Origin: Armatimonadetes bacterium Uphvl-Ar2 | Lineage (GTDB): Bacteria; Armatimonadota; Fimbriimonadia; Fimbriimonadales; Fimbriimonadaceae | Assembly: GCA_002162095.1 (NCBI GenBank) | Contig: CP021424.1 | Coordinates: 1,488,001 to 1,552,000 of the forward strand | DNA: 64,000 nt | Direction of reading: 5' to 3' | In this document: positions 4,472-11,587 of the stretch, piece by piece | How positions within the stretch are numbered: position 1 is the first letter of the stretch | How the letters are laid out: every line of letters begins with the position of its first letter | Notes under the pieces: model-generated | Told to the model about the DNA's origin: nothing | Databases searched by the model: none | The model's input: only the letters and a program-made list of their open reading frames with translations | Position numbers and translations under genes: made by a program

Positions 4472-5086
4472 TTAGCGCGAAATCACCCGGGCGATGACGA
4501 AGCCGAAGGTAGCGCCAAAGCCCACGGCCGCAATGGCGACCTGGGTGATGAGGCCCCGGTGAGTCTCCCAGAAATTCGGCTTATCCTTGGAGCGGATACG
4601 GACGCAATCCAACGTGACCGTACTGGTGCTGCCCCACATGTTCACGCTTAGGCTCTGGATTTGCGGGTTGAAGTTCAGCACATTGGCCCCGTACCAGCCG
4701 CCGTAGCTGGGCATGTGCACATCCACCTTTTGGTTGGGTAGCGGCGCGAAGGGCTGAAGCTGGTGGGCCGGGAGGGCGACCTCAGCCCCGCTGACAAACT
4801 GAATGTGGGCGATATCGCCTTGGATTCGCTGCACGCGAGCAACGTAAAGCCAGCCGTCGGTGCTGGGCGCATAAACCAGTTGACCGGAGGTGATTTCGGG
4901 GCGCGAGGCCAGGCGCTCGCGCAGGGCTTGGACGACGGCGTCCCGGGGGATGCCCGCCTCTTGGGCGGCTTGGACGAAGGCCTCGAACGGGGCGAGTTCG
5001 TGGTCTTCGGTGGTGAGGGCCTGGGCGCGACTGAGCACGCCTTGCAGCTCGTCTTCGCTCAGGTGGCCCGAGTCTAAGCGATTCAT
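4472..5086 (-). CDS. Unrecognised protein with two beta-rich repeats and a C-terminal membrane anchor
   Basis: 204 residues, family not recognised. Residues ~1-60 look helical (SEDELQGVLSRAQALT...). Residues ~65-115 and ~118-165 resemble two SH3/Tudor-like units: the first has SGQLVYAPSTDGWLYVARV, the second KVDVHMPSYGGWYGANVL, each followed by short beta strands. A single hydrophobic helix near the end (VAIAAVGFGATFGFVIARV) would tail-anchor the protein. There is no Shine-Dalgarno; a TATCCT box lies 6 nt before ATG, suggesting a leaderless message. The repeat reading is my inference. Confidence 0.7.
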   Translation of the reverse strand: MNRLDSGHLSEDELQGVLSRAQALTTEDHELAPFEAFVQAAQEAGIPRDAVVQALRERLASRPEITSGQLVYAPSTDGWLYVARVQRIQGDIAHIQFVSGAEVALPAHQLQPFAPLPNQKVDVHMPSYGGWYGANVLNFNPQIQSLSVNMWGSTSTVTLDCVRIRSKDKPNFWETHRGLITQVAIAAVGFGATFGFVIARVISR

Positions 5087-5142: not shown

Positions 5143-5218
5143 GGCCTCGTAGCTCAGGGGATAGAGCGCCTCCGTCCTAAGGAGGGCGTCGGGGGTTCGA
5201 GTCCCTCCGAGGCCGCCA
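5143..5218 (+). tRNA. tRNA-Arg (anticodon CCT)
   Basis: A 76-nt cloverleaf: acceptor GGCCTCG/CGAGGCC (7 bp, perfect), D arm GCTC/GAGC, anticodon arm CCTCC-GTCCTAA-GGAGG giving anticodon CCT (reads AGG), T arm GGGGG-TTCGAGT-CCCTC, discriminator G and encoded CCA. It is the left, fully paired copy of the two tRNA-Arg genes that bound the cassette array. Confidence 0.95.
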
Positions 5219-5298
5219 CTATGAACCTGGCAGGAAAGGCAAACCGTTCTCGCGCGACCCATATGGCCGTCGACCGAGAAGAAGGGACTCCTCTTCGG

Positions 5299-5718
5299 CT
5301 AGTCAGGCATGATCCACTCGACGAGATTTTGGTCCGGGTCATAGAAATACACCGAAGTGGCGTGCATCCAAGACTGCCTAACCGGCCCGTAGAACGGGGT
5401 GCCGGTGTTCTTGAGGCGATCTATCCCTAATTCCCAATCTCGCTGATCCACTCCGATCGCGAAGTGAACGGAGCCGAAGCGTTGTCCCGCAGGAAGAGCG
5501 GAGAACTCTTCGAACAAGAGGTCCCCTTTGTGCAAGGCGATTCGTCGAGCGCTGGTGGGTTCACCGGTGGTGAACCAGGTCCACTCGTCGTCTGGCTCGC
5601 TTGCGTGCGGATCCAATGACAACCCCACTACCTCCAAATAGAATCGTCTTGCGAGCGAGACGTCCTTCACAATTAGAACAAGCTCGTTGAGTCCCTTCGA
5701 GATGACCGGTCGCATCAT
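5299..5718 (-). CDS. VOC-family (glyoxalase/bleomycin-resistance-like) protein, cassette A
   Basis: About 139 residues. The fold is a single-chain VOC protein with two beta-alpha-beta-beta-beta modules: GLNELVLIVKDVSLARRFY at the start, GSVHFAIGV in the middle, YFYDPDQNLVEWIMPD at the end (the last motif carries a metal-ligand Glu). Such proteins include glyoxalases, dioxygenases and antibiotic-binding proteins; the substrate cannot be told. I start at the first of two adjacent ATGs (5718, 5715) because the upstream codons are part of a hairpin. A TAGACT box lies 4-7 nt before these ATGs. It is the only gene between the first tRNA and the first tRNA-tail repeat. Confidence 0.8.
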   Translation of the reverse strand: MMRPVISKGLNELVLIVKDVSLARRFYLEVVGLSLDPHASEPDDEWTWFTTGEPTSARRIALHKGDLLFEEFSALPAGQRFGSVHFAIGVDQRDWELGIDRLKNTGTPFYGPVRQSWMHATSVYFYDPDQNLVEWIMPD

Positions 5719-5734
5719 CGGCAGTCTACTGCCG
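5719..5734. repeat. Hairpin at the start of the cassette A gene
   Basis: CGGCAGT-CT-ACTGCCG, a 7-bp perfect inverted repeat that abuts the VOC start codon and contains the candidate -10 box TAGACT (minus strand). It may be an operator or part of a recombination site; nothing else distinguishes the two. Confidence 0.4.
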
Positions 5735-5797
5735 AGCAAGACGGCGTTTTGGGGTGGTTTTCAGTCGATAGGCGTACTAAAAGAGCGAGCCACCTTT

Positions 5798-5847
5798 CGT
5801 CCCAAGGCAGGATTCGGGGGTTCGAGTCCCTCCGAGGCCGCCACTAT
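5798..5847 (+). repeat. Partial tRNA-Arg 3' copy (attachment-site-like direct repeat 1)
   Basis: The block 5814-5847 is identical over 34 nt to 5189-5222 of the first tRNA region, covering the T arm, acceptor 3' strand, CCA and four bases beyond. Upstream, homology continues in decayed form through the anticodon arm (CGTCCCAAGGCAGG against CGTCCTAAGGAGG). No acceptor 5' half or D arm can be recognised, so it cannot be a functional tRNA. Confidence 0.85.
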
Positions 5848-5907
5848 TTTGAACCGCTCGTTCATGACTTTGATATTTGCAGCTGCCATACGCCGTAACC
5901 AATCGGA

Positions 5908-6612
5908 ATGGTGCATCATGAACGGGTGACCGACTTGTCCGCTGTGAATTCCAAAGAGATCGTCAGAACAGGCTACGACCGTGTCTCGGGGACCTATCGA
6001 GGTGATCGGTTCGATCTCACGGACCCGGAACAGATGAAGTACGCGGGTTGGATCGAAGAGCTCAAGATCCAACTGGGCCCTGGTGGAGACGTTTTGGATT
6101 TGGGCTGCGGCAACGGTGTGCCGGTGGCTCAGTTGCTCGTCCAAGCGGGTTACGGCTATGTCGGGGTTGACCTCTCGCCTGTCCAAATTGAACGAGCTCG
6201 AAGGCTGACGCCCCACGCCGAATTCATCTGTGGAGACATGTCCGAATTGCAGGTTCCGGCCGAACGGTTTTCTGCGGTGGCCTCGCTCTACGCAATGATC
6301 CACTTGCCACTGGAAGAGCAAAGAGGCCTGTTAAAGCGCATCCATCAATGGCTCCAACCCGGTGGCGTGCTAATGATCATTGTCGGCGCAACGGAGTGGA
6401 CTGGCGTTGAGGAAGACTGGCTTGGGGTGCCTGGAGTGACGATGTATTGGAGCCACGCCGACTTGCCGACCTATCAAAAATGGCTCGTGGATTGCGAATT
6501 TGAGATGATGAGGTCCAGATTTGTTCCGGAAGGTGAGGGCGGCCATGTGTTGGTGATGGCTCGAAAGGCTCAAACCACCCACGGTCAGAGAGCGTGTGAA
6601 GGTGCATGGTGA
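5908..6612 (+). CDS. Class I SAM-dependent methyltransferase, cassette B
   Basis: 234 residues with a complete Rossmann-type methyltransferase core: motif I VLDLGCGNG at ~62-70, the acidic strand GVDLSPVQIERAR after it, CGDMSELQVP (motif II region), and LKRIHQWLQPGGVLMI (motif III). The substrate is unknown; it resembles small-molecule/ubiquinone-type methyltransferases. The start is uncertain: ATG 5908 is the first in frame, and GTG 5926 is also possible. It is the sole gene between two tRNA-tail repeats, and its stop is followed at once by a 16-bp palindrome. Confidence 0.85.
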   Translation: MVHHERVTDLSAVNSKEIVRTGYDRVSGTYRGDRFDLTDPEQMKYAGWIEELKIQLGPGGDVLDLGCGNGVPVAQLLVQAGYGYVGVDLSPVQIERARRLTPHAEFICGDMSELQVPAERFSAVASLYAMIHLPLEEQRGLLKRIHQWLQPGGVLMIIVGATEWTGVEEDWLGVPGVTMYWSHADLPTYQKWLVDCEFEMMRSRFVPEGEGGHVLVMARKAQTTHGQRACEGAW

Positions 6613-6613
6613 C

Positions 6614-6629
6614 CGCCCGTCGACGGGCG
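6614..6629. repeat. 16-bp perfect palindrome after cassette B gene
   Basis: CGCCCGTCGACGGGCG, fully self-complementary, lies directly between the methyltransferase stop and the second tRNA-tail copy. It could be a terminator stem without a T run or a recombinase-binding arm. Confidence 0.5.
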
Positions 6630-6666
6630 AAGGGTGTCGGGGGTTCGGTTCCCTCCGGGGCCGCCA
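6630..6666 (+). repeat. Partial tRNA-Arg 3' copy (attachment-site-like direct repeat 2, degenerate)
   Basis: 6637-6666 matches the tRNA 3' end through CCA with three substitutions (TTCGGTT for TTCGAGT, CGGGGCC for CGAGGCC). AAGG and GTG upstream still align with the anticodon arm. The 5' half of a tRNA is absent. Confidence 0.8.
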
Positions 6667-6708
6667 AACAGTCAACTCTCATAGGGAACGAAGGACAGAG
6701 AATTTGAC

Positions 6709-8324
6709 TCACTTAGTGAAGAGGCTTCGATAAAACTTCCAGTTCTCATCACCTATAGCTTTGAGAAGATCAAGCGTGTCGTGGCTCACTTTAGGTCGTA
6801 TCAAAAAGGTGTGTGGAACGCCTAGTTGGGTCAAATGGGTTGAGAACTTTCGGTTCGCCGGCAATGTAAAGTCATCTTCTCCTATGCAAATGCGAATCGT
6901 AACTCCGGATTTAAGTTTCGATGCGTTACTCTCTGCTAGTGTCCACGGGCTTTGGGCCTTAAACTCCTCAATCTTGCCCCCATAAACGGACTGTAGAATT
7001 CTCTCTCGCTCATCCGGATTCGATTCCGCTCTGGGACCGTTGAATTCGAGATCCAGCGGACCGGCGGCAAGCATTGAGATGCCAGCAAAGAGATGCGGAT
7101 ACTTGAAACCGAAACGTCCGGCGCCATAGCCACCCATGCTGAACCCCTCAACTATTCTTCCTTCTCGCTTGGTAATGGTCCGAAACTTGGAATCTACCTC
7201 TGGGATCATTTCCTTGACCACAATGGTCTCAATTGGCCTCTTCCCGTCCGCCGAGTCGCACCACATCCCGTTGGCGAAGCTGTTCGGAAAGACGATGATC
7301 ATCGGCGGGATATTCCCAGCTTGGATCGCCGCATCGAAGAAGCCACTCACGGGTCTAACTCCGGTTAACCCGCCTCCCGAGCCGTGGAGCCAGTAAAGCA
7401 CTGGGAATCGCCTTGTTTTCTCCTCCTCATAAGCCTTTGGCAAGTAGAGGTGGTAACTGACCTGGGCTTTGACGGCTTGACTTTGGAGGATGTACTGTTG
7501 AACACGGGGCGCAGTCACCTGAAGAGTGACCCACTGACTGGGCTGCTGCTTCATGACCCCGTATTTCTCAAGCCAACTCACGATTCGCACGACCATATCC
7601 TCTCGTTGAGAACGGATAATGTTGTGATTTTCGCCTTTGTAGATCACTCGCTCATTGGGTGTCTTGATCTCATCCAAGATTTCCTTGAGACTCGCTGATC
7701 GCTCAGGGGGAACCACGGTGTCGTGGTCGCCATGAAGCATCAGTGTGGGAACCTTGATTCGCTTGGCGGTGGCAGGATCCGGAGCCGGAAATCCGCTGGC
7801 GGAAGCAATCCCCCCGCCGAGACTATGGCGGCCATGATCTTGGCTTCGGGATCTGCAACAAGACCTACGGTGACGAATCCTCCCATGCTGTGGCCGAAAG
7901 CTGCGACCCGCGACGGGTCCACGTACTTGAGGCTTCGGGCGATTTCCAGCGTCTTCTTGGCTCGGCGAATGTTCTCCGCGCTGGCTCCCTCGGCTGTCCC
8001 CGTGCCGTTACGAGCATGGGTGTAGTCGACCGCGATACATACAATGCCCTTTTTGGTGAGATCCGGGGCAAAGTTACTTGCCATCGCGGCAGCAGATCCG
8101 CCCTTGCCGTGGCTGATCAGGAGCACCGGAAACGGACCGTCGCCTTCAGGCTTGTAGAGAACGCCGCTAAGCTTAGTTTCGCCCTCTGAGAAAGTCCATT
8201 GAGTGCCAGCTTGCTCAAATCCCTTGATTTGGGCCTGAACGAAGGTTGCCAGCAACGCAGTCAAACACACCATCGCCAATCGTGCGCCTACGTTGAACCT
8301 AAAGGTCGGATTTGTCGGGATCAT
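6709..8324 (-). CDS. Secreted two-domain hydrolase/esterase with one-base frameshift, cassette C
   Basis: Two overlapping frames (8324-7740 and 7740-6709) form one gene of ~538 residues if a single G is added to the G6 run at 7810-7815 (C on the plus strand). The product has a signal peptide (MVCLTALLATFVQAQ). A dienelactone-hydrolase-like domain follows (nucleophile in FGHSMGG, Asp in HGDHDTVVP, His in GENHNI). Then comes a second esterase domain of the enterochelin/D-esterase type (SMGGYGAG, GEDDFTLPA, VSHDTLD). Both triads look complete once the frame is restored. It is the last and largest cassette in the tRNA array and is more A/T-rich than flanking genes. The break is either an assembly error or a real inactivation. 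Confidence 0.75.
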
Positions 8325-8500
8325 TTGACAGCAAAGACGTTAATCACCGCGATAAGTTCACCGGCAGCGCATGGACTGAGAATTGAGCCGAGGCTCAACC
8401 AGGGCCGACATCTTCGGACATCCGGTGTCTCGAACGCACGACCTCGACCTGCTACTTTAAGATTCGCAGGATCGCCGGTGTCAAAATTTATGCACCGAGC

Positions 8501-8576
8501 GGCCACGTAGCTCAGTGGATAGAGCGCCTCCGTCCTAAGGAGGGCGTCGGGGGTTCGAGTCCCTCCGAGGCCGCCA
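8501..8576 (+). tRNA. tRNA-Arg (anticodon CCT), second copy with acceptor mismatch
   Basis: 76 nt, identical to the copy at 5143 except two bases: position 5 is A instead of T, and one D-loop base is T instead of G. Anticodon arm, T arm and CCA are intact. The change at position 5 places A opposite A68 in the acceptor stem (GGCCACG against CGAGGCC). It may be a recombination hybrid or a decaying duplicate; function is uncertain. Confidence 0.85.
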
Positions 8577-8600
8577 GCCAAACTGGGCCATCCTGCCGGT

Positions 8601-9758
8601 TCAGCCAGCCACTTTCACCACCAACACGCGGACGCCTAGCGGCTCCACTGACTCTCTCAGAACCCCGTTCGCTATCGCAACCCGCCGGTCATCGGAGAGG
8701 AACCGGGCCTCGCCCGTCGCCCCATTGATCGTGATCTTGGCGTTAGACACGGGGCTTCGCGTGGGGTTCACCACAATCACGGTGGCCTGCCCGTCCAGCA
8801 GGCGCCAACCGACCTCGAGGGGGCCATCCGCACTTACCTGGATGCCAGAGGGGTTACTCGGCCCCTGCAGAGTGCGTCCGGCTTTGCGAATCAAAGCGTT
8901 CTGCCGCACCATCTCGGCCACGATTTCGGGCGGGGCCGCGTCGAATCGGAAAGCATCGCGCCTCACCGATGCGGGGAAATAGAAGATCCCCCGTGCCCCG
9001 TGCAAAATCGCGTACCAGATTTGGGCGCGCATTTCCGCGGGGGTTGGGCAGCGCGCCCCTGGCACGTTCCCGCTCTCGATCTCGCTGGCTTCGATGAAGA
9101 CGAACTGCGGCTTGCTCGTCAGTTTGCGGATCGCTCGCATCGGCTCCGCAATGAGCGTAATGTCGCCTCGGCGCGATTCATGCGACCGGTTGAGCCAACC
9201 TCCCGCGGGATAGATGTCGCTAGCGATCCAATCAGCGGTGCGGACCAGGCGCGGATAGTAGGTGGCGTATTCGCGCGAATAGGCGTCCGTCCGGGTGGTG
9301 AACCACGTGATGTCCGGCCCGGCAAAGTTCAAAAATATCTTGCGGTTCGGGTCAATCCGGCGCCATTCCGCGTAGGTTCGCTCGAAGGCGGGTGTCCACG
9401 TGGGGGCTCGGCCGGCGGCATCGGGTTCGTCCCAATGCGACCACGCCAGCAAATCCTTGCGGCCGATGTCGTCCTGTGGATTGGCGGCGGGCCGCCGGAT
9501 GATGCGAAACCCTCCGGCGCGGGCAGCTCGATCCCAGGCCGCAGGATCGTGGTTCATTGGCACCTCCAGCAGAGTATCGATGCCGCGTTGTTTCCATTTT
9601 TCGAATGACTCCACGGGCTGCGAGAACACGCCAATCGGGAAGAACCCGTCGAGAAAGAGCGTCTCGTTTTGGGCCGCTGGTGCGGTGGGCAGAGGCCCGG
9701 CGCAAGACGTGGCGGGCAAAAGCAGCAACGCGAACGCAAAGGGTGCCGCTCTCAACAT
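8601..9758 (-). CDS. Secreted TIM-barrel protein, putative glycoside hydrolase
   Basis: About 385 residues from the ATG at 9758, chosen because it begins a lipoprotein-like signal peptide (FALLLLPATSC); the frame stays open upstream to 9947 without such a signal. The body looks like a glycosidase-type TIM barrel: FPIGVFSQPVESFEKW, a likely acid Glu in SHWDEPDA, a likely nucleophile Glu in VFIEASE, WYAILHGARGIFYFPAS, then a C-terminal beta domain. I infer extracellular or periplasmic polysaccharide cleavage; the exact family is not recognised. It is divergent from the PEP-CTERM gene. Confidence 0.65.
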   Translation of the reverse strand: MLRAAPFAFALLLLPATSCAGPLPTAPAAQNETLFLDGFFPIGVFSQPVESFEKWKQRGIDTLLEVPMNHDPAAWDRAARAGGFRIIRRPAANPQDDIGRKDLLAWSHWDEPDAAGRAPTWTPAFERTYAEWRRIDPNRKIFLNFAGPDITWFTTRTDAYSREYATYYPRLVRTADWIASDIYPAGGWLNRSHESRRGDITLIAEPMRAIRKLTSKPQFVFIEASEIESGNVPGARCPTPAEMRAQIWYAILHGARGIFYFPASVRRDAFRFDAAPPEIVAEMVRQNALIRKAGRTLQGPSNPSGIQVSADGPLEVGWRLLDGQATVIVVNPTRSPVSNAKITINGATGEARFLSDDRRVAIANGVLRESVEPLGVRVLVVKVAG

Positions 9759-11305: not shown

Positions 11306-11587
11306 CTACTTCACCGTCGCGCGCCAAGCCTCAAAGGCGTCCTTCTCCGACGGCGGCACCTCTTGCCAGTGGCAGTTGTGCACGGCCCCCCACACCGCGT
11401 AAAACATCAGTTTGGAAACCTGGCGGTGGCGCACTTTCAGTTCCGCCCATAGCTCGTAGAGGTCCGCCTCGGCCAGTTGGCCGTGGGTGTGGATGCCCAA
11501 CTCATTCAGCCACCCGGCGGTCAGGTCGCTAAGGTTCCACAGCTCCGCCACCGGTGTTTCGTCGGTAAGTGGGGTGCGGTGCGGCAT
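11306..11587 (-). CDS. TfoX C-terminal-domain protein
   Basis: 93 residues matching the stand-alone TfoX_C domain: LWNLSDLTAGWLNELGIHTHGQL, LYELWAELK, LMFYAVWGAVHNCHW and a closing P-P-S-E-K helix. The domain is a helix-hairpin-helix-like module found at the end of TfoX/Sxy competence regulators and alone in many bacteria. The role of the stand-alone form is not established. It converges with the preceding small gene. Confidence 0.8.
   Translation of the reverse strand: MPHRTPLTDETPVAELWNLSDLTAGWLNELGIHTHGQLAEADLYELWAELKVRHRQVSKLMFYAVWGAVHNCHWQEVPPSEKDAFEAWRATVK

Follow-up and report, generated by a model that had tools for sequence, protein, structure and literature searches.

The chromosome of Armatimonadetes bacterium Uphvl-Ar2 (G000; a single contig and complete chromosome of 2.63 Mb) carries two tRNA-Arg(CCT) genes with a short run of unrelated genes between them. 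Both lie in the 64,000-nucleotide stretch analysed here, referred to as the window, and the question raised by the locus is what brought these genes together. The analysis makes it very probable that they are the cargo of integrase-less units which inserted site-specifically, one behind another, at the 3' end of tRNA-Arg(CCT) and have since decayed, a reading that explains why unrelated genes are neighbours here.

The only tRNA genes that ARAGORN identifies in the window are two copies of tRNA-Arg(CCT) in direct orientation, and together with Rfam the program agrees with a first-pass annotation of this DNA in which two full copies flank three units (Table 1). The units between the tRNA genes and tails hold a VOC protein, a methyltransferase and a frameshifted hydrolase/esterase, respectively. 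tRNA no. 1 is the syntenic copy, adjoining a CorC-like gene and the gene at 4472-5086, and is presumably the integration target, its 3' half having been restored by an inserted unit. The four copies of the tRNA 3' end listed in the annotation are all present, with the homology of the two displaced tails extending further than was claimed, and the identity of 34 bases between 5189-5222 and 5814-5847 is exact. The length of the tail homology excludes a chance origin. Assembly duplication of the repeats was rejected as unlikely, since the assembly consists of one contig and the copies are not identical in sequence. The units have a G+C content of 54-56%, compared with 62-64% in the flanks.

Table 1. 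Features of the tRNA-Arg(CCT) array in window coordinates.
Feature	Position	Strand	Details
tRNA-Arg(CCT) no. 1	5143..5218	+	ARAGORN; Rfam 57.3 bits
Unit 1 left end, CTATGAACCTGG	5219..5230	+	Degenerate form of the conserved CTATTTTGAACCT motif
Unit 1 cargo, VOC/glyoxalase-fold protein, 146 aa	5299..5739	-	
Displaced tRNA tail no. 1	5798..5843	+	tRNA positions 31-76, 89%, E 1e-10
Unit 2 left end, CTATTTTGAACC	5844..5855	+	Directly after tail no. 1
Unit 2 cargo, SAM-dependent methyltransferase, 234 aa	5908..6612	+	
Displaced tRNA tail no. 2	6631..6666	+	Eroded; tRNA positions 41-76, 94%, E 8e-9
Unit 3 cargo, esterase ORF, 343 aa	6709..7740	-	
Unit 3 cargo, alpha/beta hydrolase N-terminal part	7740..8324	-	Pfam matches split over two frames
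tRNA-Arg(CCT) no. 2	8501..8576	+	ARAGORN; Rfam 56.3 bits
Start of chromosomal flank kept in G001	8592..8640		Right border of variable region

Comparison of the locus across relatives, as proposed in the first-pass annotation, found it differently filled in the congeneric genomes G001 and G002. The three congeners thus have three different fillings at the tRNA-Arg(CCT) site, which is therefore polymorphic. G001, whose flanking proteins are 84-100% identical to those of G000, has a single tRNA-Arg(CCT) at the syntenic place. Behind it come 958 bp of unrelated sequence, in which there are two ORFs (putatively ArsR-like and SRPBCC-like, as read by eye), and then the same downstream gene as in the window. 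The filling at the syntenic tRNA of G002 begins with the left end TTTGAACC and a GGTCTCTC arm (TTGAACC at +4, GGTCTCTC at +57) and includes a putative RND-type efflux gene, also read by eye.

A search of 85 genomes of the family for the tRNA tail, with tails and units analysed in the regions fetched, found copies in many of them; by this sequence record, tRNA-Arg(CCT) is an integration hotspot across the family. In the fetched regions most displaced tails extend from tRNA position ~29, which falls in the anticodon stem-loop, to the CCA, and they bound units of 626 bp to 34 kb. Units with unrelated cargo have their last 85-145 bp in common because paired GGTCTCTC repeats and the tail lie there. 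In one class the repeats of this right-end pair precede position 29 by 93 and 82 bp, in the other by 94/82 or 93/81 bp. At the left end TTGAACC lies at ~+5 after the CCA, and complete units have paired GGTCTCTC repeats at +58/+69 or +58/+70. The core (tRNA positions ~29-76) is thus framed on both sides by GGTCTCTC arms in an attP-like arrangement; the attP sites of tyrosine recombinases have arm sites on both sides of the core. A strict right-arm-plus-core pattern gave 31 matches at 30 sites in 17 of the 85 genomes, and none with a reversed control. A possible third arm class, AGTTTGGGC, is present in G028 and G078. Insertion next to an intact tRNA also predicts the order seen for one five-gene unit, which occupies position 1 in the G072 array but position 2 in the G074 array, with a different unit on its tRNA side.

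The two full tRNA copies in direct orientation could also have arisen by tRNA duplication and pseudogene decay, with no site-specific recombination. This is highly improbable, however, given that tails in many genomes start at the same position and are framed by conserved arms and integrases, and that homology upstream of tRNA no. 2 to the sequence upstream of tRNA no. 1 ends after two bases; simple duplication was rejected on this cross-genome att architecture. The two tRNAs differ at two bases, both in the 5' half, and their 3' halves are equal. One change leaves an A-A mismatch in the acceptor stem of tRNA no. 2, the changed base being unpaired with the 3' strand. A full tRNA at the last end of an array is atypical for tRNA-integrated genomic islands, and no second full tRNA was found at the array end in any relative examined. 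tRNA no. 2 was probably carried in by the third element as a complete tRNA gene, the 5' half of which would be joined by recombination to the resident 3' half.

Candidate recombinases for such insertions are present in relatives. An integrase (PF00589, Phage_integrase) at least 65% identical to that of G008 lies directly after tRNA-Arg(CCT) in ten of ten genomes (G008, G006, G104, G031, G108, G097, G102, G103, G004 and G003), lying within ~150 bp of the CCA in each. The spacing of the left arms, scored only where two repeats are seen, tracks the integrase subclade, with 11 bp in G008, G006, G104 and G031 and 12 bp in G102, G004 and G097. More distant integrase relatives (~50% identity) lie mostly near tRNA-Val in the cases where the fetched stretch contains a tRNA. 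No relative of the tRNA-Arg integrase was found in G000, G001 or G002, and the PF00589 genes of G000 occupy four places, none of them near the array. The units of the window are thus without a recombinase, as the first-pass annotation had claimed, and its proposal of serial site-specific insertion at the tRNA 3' end by a tyrosine recombinase is borne out by the tails, the site polymorphism and the integrases of relatives.

These observations suggest a mechanism in which an integrase would recombine the attP of an element with the tRNA, the crossover falling in the anticodon-loop region. On insertion, the 3' half supplied by the element would make the tRNA whole again and the old tail would remain at the far end, so that each new insertion would add a unit next to the intact tRNA. 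Units lacking an integrase would persist as cis- or trans-mobilizable passengers, three of which would have accumulated in the window.

The ends of the window units retain this architecture only in part. The four bases that the first two tail copies share past the CCA are indeed present; they are not part of the tRNA but the first four of CTATTTTGAACC, a conserved motif separate from the tRNA that also follows tails in other genomes. Units U31 and U7 and the integrase-carrying element in G103 have the same 12 bases at their left ends as unit 2. The exact motif is confined to unit 2, unit 1 having the degenerate form, and no left-end motif was found in unit 3. A profile search detected no right-end arm module in register at any right end in the window, with a profile for which members score 18-103 bits in leave-one-out tests; weak out-of-register matches (the best at 8278-8308, minus strand, E 0.011) were treated as chance. 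The strict arm-plus-core pattern has zero matches in G000. The missing arms, the lack of a cognate integrase in G000 and the single exact left motif all count against the reading as an array of inserted units. The undetectable arms, the eroded tail no. 2 and the frameshift in the unit 3 hydrolase lead us to read the array as an old, decayed set, which, with integrase and arms now absent, is most likely immobile in its present host.

The cargo genes also bear on how the units arose. One gene per unit, as first annotated, describes units 1 and 2. In unit 3 the C-terminal part of the frameshifted hydrolase forms the start of the 6709-7740 ORF, where it is fused to the esterase. The gene for an esterase with 77% identity to residues 61-343 of the esterase ORF lies in a tail-bounded unit in G020, a member of another genus, whereas five proteins flanking the array share only 44-71% identity between the window and its congener G002. 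This difference indicates that the window esterase has probably moved horizontally. Two of its four close relatives (L118 and L119) lie away from tails, and the esterase alone therefore does not mark the system.

Within the same system, it is reasonably probable that the window units are deletion remnants, larger integrase-bearing islands in tandem having shrunk to single genes between tails. Large islands with an integrase do exist at the same tRNA, and their integrase genes adjoin the left arm, so that a single deletion can remove both. Erosion seen in the window points the same way, affecting the tails, the left ends and the gene of unit 3. Less easily accommodated are units 1 and 2, which are compact and have intact genes filling 71-86% of the unit, and the first 12 bases of the left end kept by unit 2, which oblige any deletion there to start just inside that end.

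A more tentative possibility is that units of one gene were themselves mobile, behaving much like integron cassettes: minimal, non-autonomous elements that an integrase acting in trans captured and inserted. Most units in the arrays of the family lack a PF00589 gene, including units of tens of kilobases and many of 0.6-2 kb, and at least seven other genomes have small integrase-less units of 626 bp to 2.2 kb. Their right arms are kept in U20 (874 bp), U11 (1.7 kb), U10 (2.1 kb), U32 (2.2 kb) and U16, and U18 (1,436 bp) has arms on both sides. Unit cargo is diverse, with PIN-domain proteins, a 2OG-Fe(II) oxygenase, a P-type ATPase, DUF1275, hydrolases and an aminotransferase with a TIR protein. 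The distance from gene end to tail, 42 bp in both the window esterase and the G020 unit, also counts in favour. However, most small units have arms on the right-hand side only, those of the window have none, and no case was found of an intact small unit, complete at both ends, that two genera share together with its cargo. Nor do the other two window genes favour it: the methyltransferase has no close relative in the 85 family genomes, and the VOC relatives, which share 45-54% identity and occur in four genomes, have no tails in the flanks fetched. Mobilization of one-gene cassettes in trans is plausible from the sequences compared, although the window units are without the arm sites that intact units in relatives have. 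Rather doubtful is the wider proposal of a cassette-like system for gene capture at tRNA-Arg(CCT) in the Fimbriimonadaceae, in which a tyrosine integrase, resident or passing through, would act in trans to excise and insert units of one or two genes with only a short attachment module; if true, it would mean integron-like arrays without an integron in this family.

The reading as accumulated insertions documents a family-wide integration hotspot in the Armatimonadota with a precisely definable attachment architecture. Two arm classes follow two integrase subclades, the target switches between tRNA-Arg and tRNA-Val among integrase clades, and the many integrase-less units range down to one gene. 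The origin and mobility of small islands at tRNA genes that lack a recombinase is a long-standing question, which can be tested directly here with short predicted sites, an identified integrase and specific small units that have arms.

Among known systems, the integron was the comparison made in the first-pass annotation. One-gene units in an array with the recombinase outside them do resemble integron gene cassettes. The sequence repeated at the unit ends, however, is a displaced tRNA 3' fragment, which in relatives is accompanied by attP-type arms, and is apparently not an attC site; the same tails bound islands of up to 34 kb; and cargo orientation is mixed. The array is anchored by a tRNA gene, and neither an integron integrase, or indeed any tyrosine recombinase gene, nor an attI-like anchor was found near it. 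An integron was therefore rejected.

The tDNA genomic islands treated by Islander have ends marked by a regenerated tRNA and a displaced fragment, as here, and in the account of PMC4383910 they are placed by their own integrase. The window likewise has an intact tRNA at one end and displaced 3' fragments of it as unit ends; an integrase inside the island is absent from the array and present in the ten relatives. The additive island fGI-2 of Ca. Methylopumilus (Methylophilaceae), at tRNA-Lys, has inserts of 330 bp to 42 kb with 1 to 63 genes between repeats of the tRNA 3' end (PMC10872708). It differs in phylum, tRNA and repeat length (20 bp), and the passages of that source on fGI-2 describe no att arms or cognate integrase.

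Closer in organization are the ssrA islands of Dehalococcoides, multiple islands that lie in tandem downstream of one tmRNA with 20-bp copies of its 3' end as borders. About half of these islands lack an integration module, and no strain has duplicates (PMC3146451). The recombinase there is a serine recombinase and the target is the tmRNA T-loop, whereas a tyrosine recombinase and the anticodon region of tRNA-Arg are involved here. Decay to cis-mobilizable elements (CIMEs) and their accretion have been reviewed, for example for ICESt1-related elements (PMC5704250). The window units resemble CIMEs in that they are arranged in tandem between attL/attR-type repeats, have no integration or transfer genes and lie beside or derive from integrase-bearing elements with the same target. 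They differ in reaching down to one gene, in the lack of an identified parent conjugative element and in att sites that are probably too incomplete to recombine, the arms being undetectable; integrase-less units of relatives, unlike those of the window, do retain arm modules. The earlier statement that no such system has been characterized is thus too strong in general (PMC3146451, PMC5704250 and, in the part on fGI-2, PMC10872708), although a literature search found no description for this phylum. As judged from sequence, the window array is a tandem accretion of non-autonomous, CIME-like integrative elements. It resembles what erosion would leave of a gene-capture hotspot; the general type is known, and what appears to be new is its occurrence in this phylum.

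The possible third class of arm repeat, AGTTTGGGC, is found at the ends of some units in two relatives, G028 (regions L047 and L048) and G078 (region L093), and its presence there points to a third type of integrase specificity directed at this one tRNA, tRNA-Arg(CCT). In its T arm and the 3' strand of its acceptor, the tRNA-Arg(CCT) gene of G078 itself departs from the form seen in almost every relative examined, as would be expected had the most recently inserted unit contributed the 3' half of the gene.

Two small, consecutive tail-bounded units of G078 each carry a PIN-domain protein gene and a small upstream ORF, possibly constituting toxin-antitoxin pairs. A tail-bounded unit of another relative, G098, contains an aminotransferase gene adjoining one for a TIR-domain protein, the latter possibly a defence gene. 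There is also a second variable site, at which the close congener G001 carries approximately 5 kb that is absent from the window, located between a PEP-CTERM-like gene and the counterpart of the next window gene.

Coordinates of the features (those of units U14 and U15 are relative to the fetched region)
Feature	Genome	Region	Position
tRNA-Arg(CCT)	G078	L093	5297-5372
Units U14 and U15	G078	L093	5373-8249
Unit U31	G098	L110	1487-3337
Second variable site, extra stretch	G001	L042	13305-18303
Second variable site, corresponding interval lacking the extra stretch		window	11029-11306
Gene with counterpart bordering the extra stretch		window	11306-11587

Integrases of a sister clade (∼50% identical; L133-L143) lie near tRNA-Val rather than tRNA-Arg genes, suggesting a target switch between the two tRNAs inside one integrase family.
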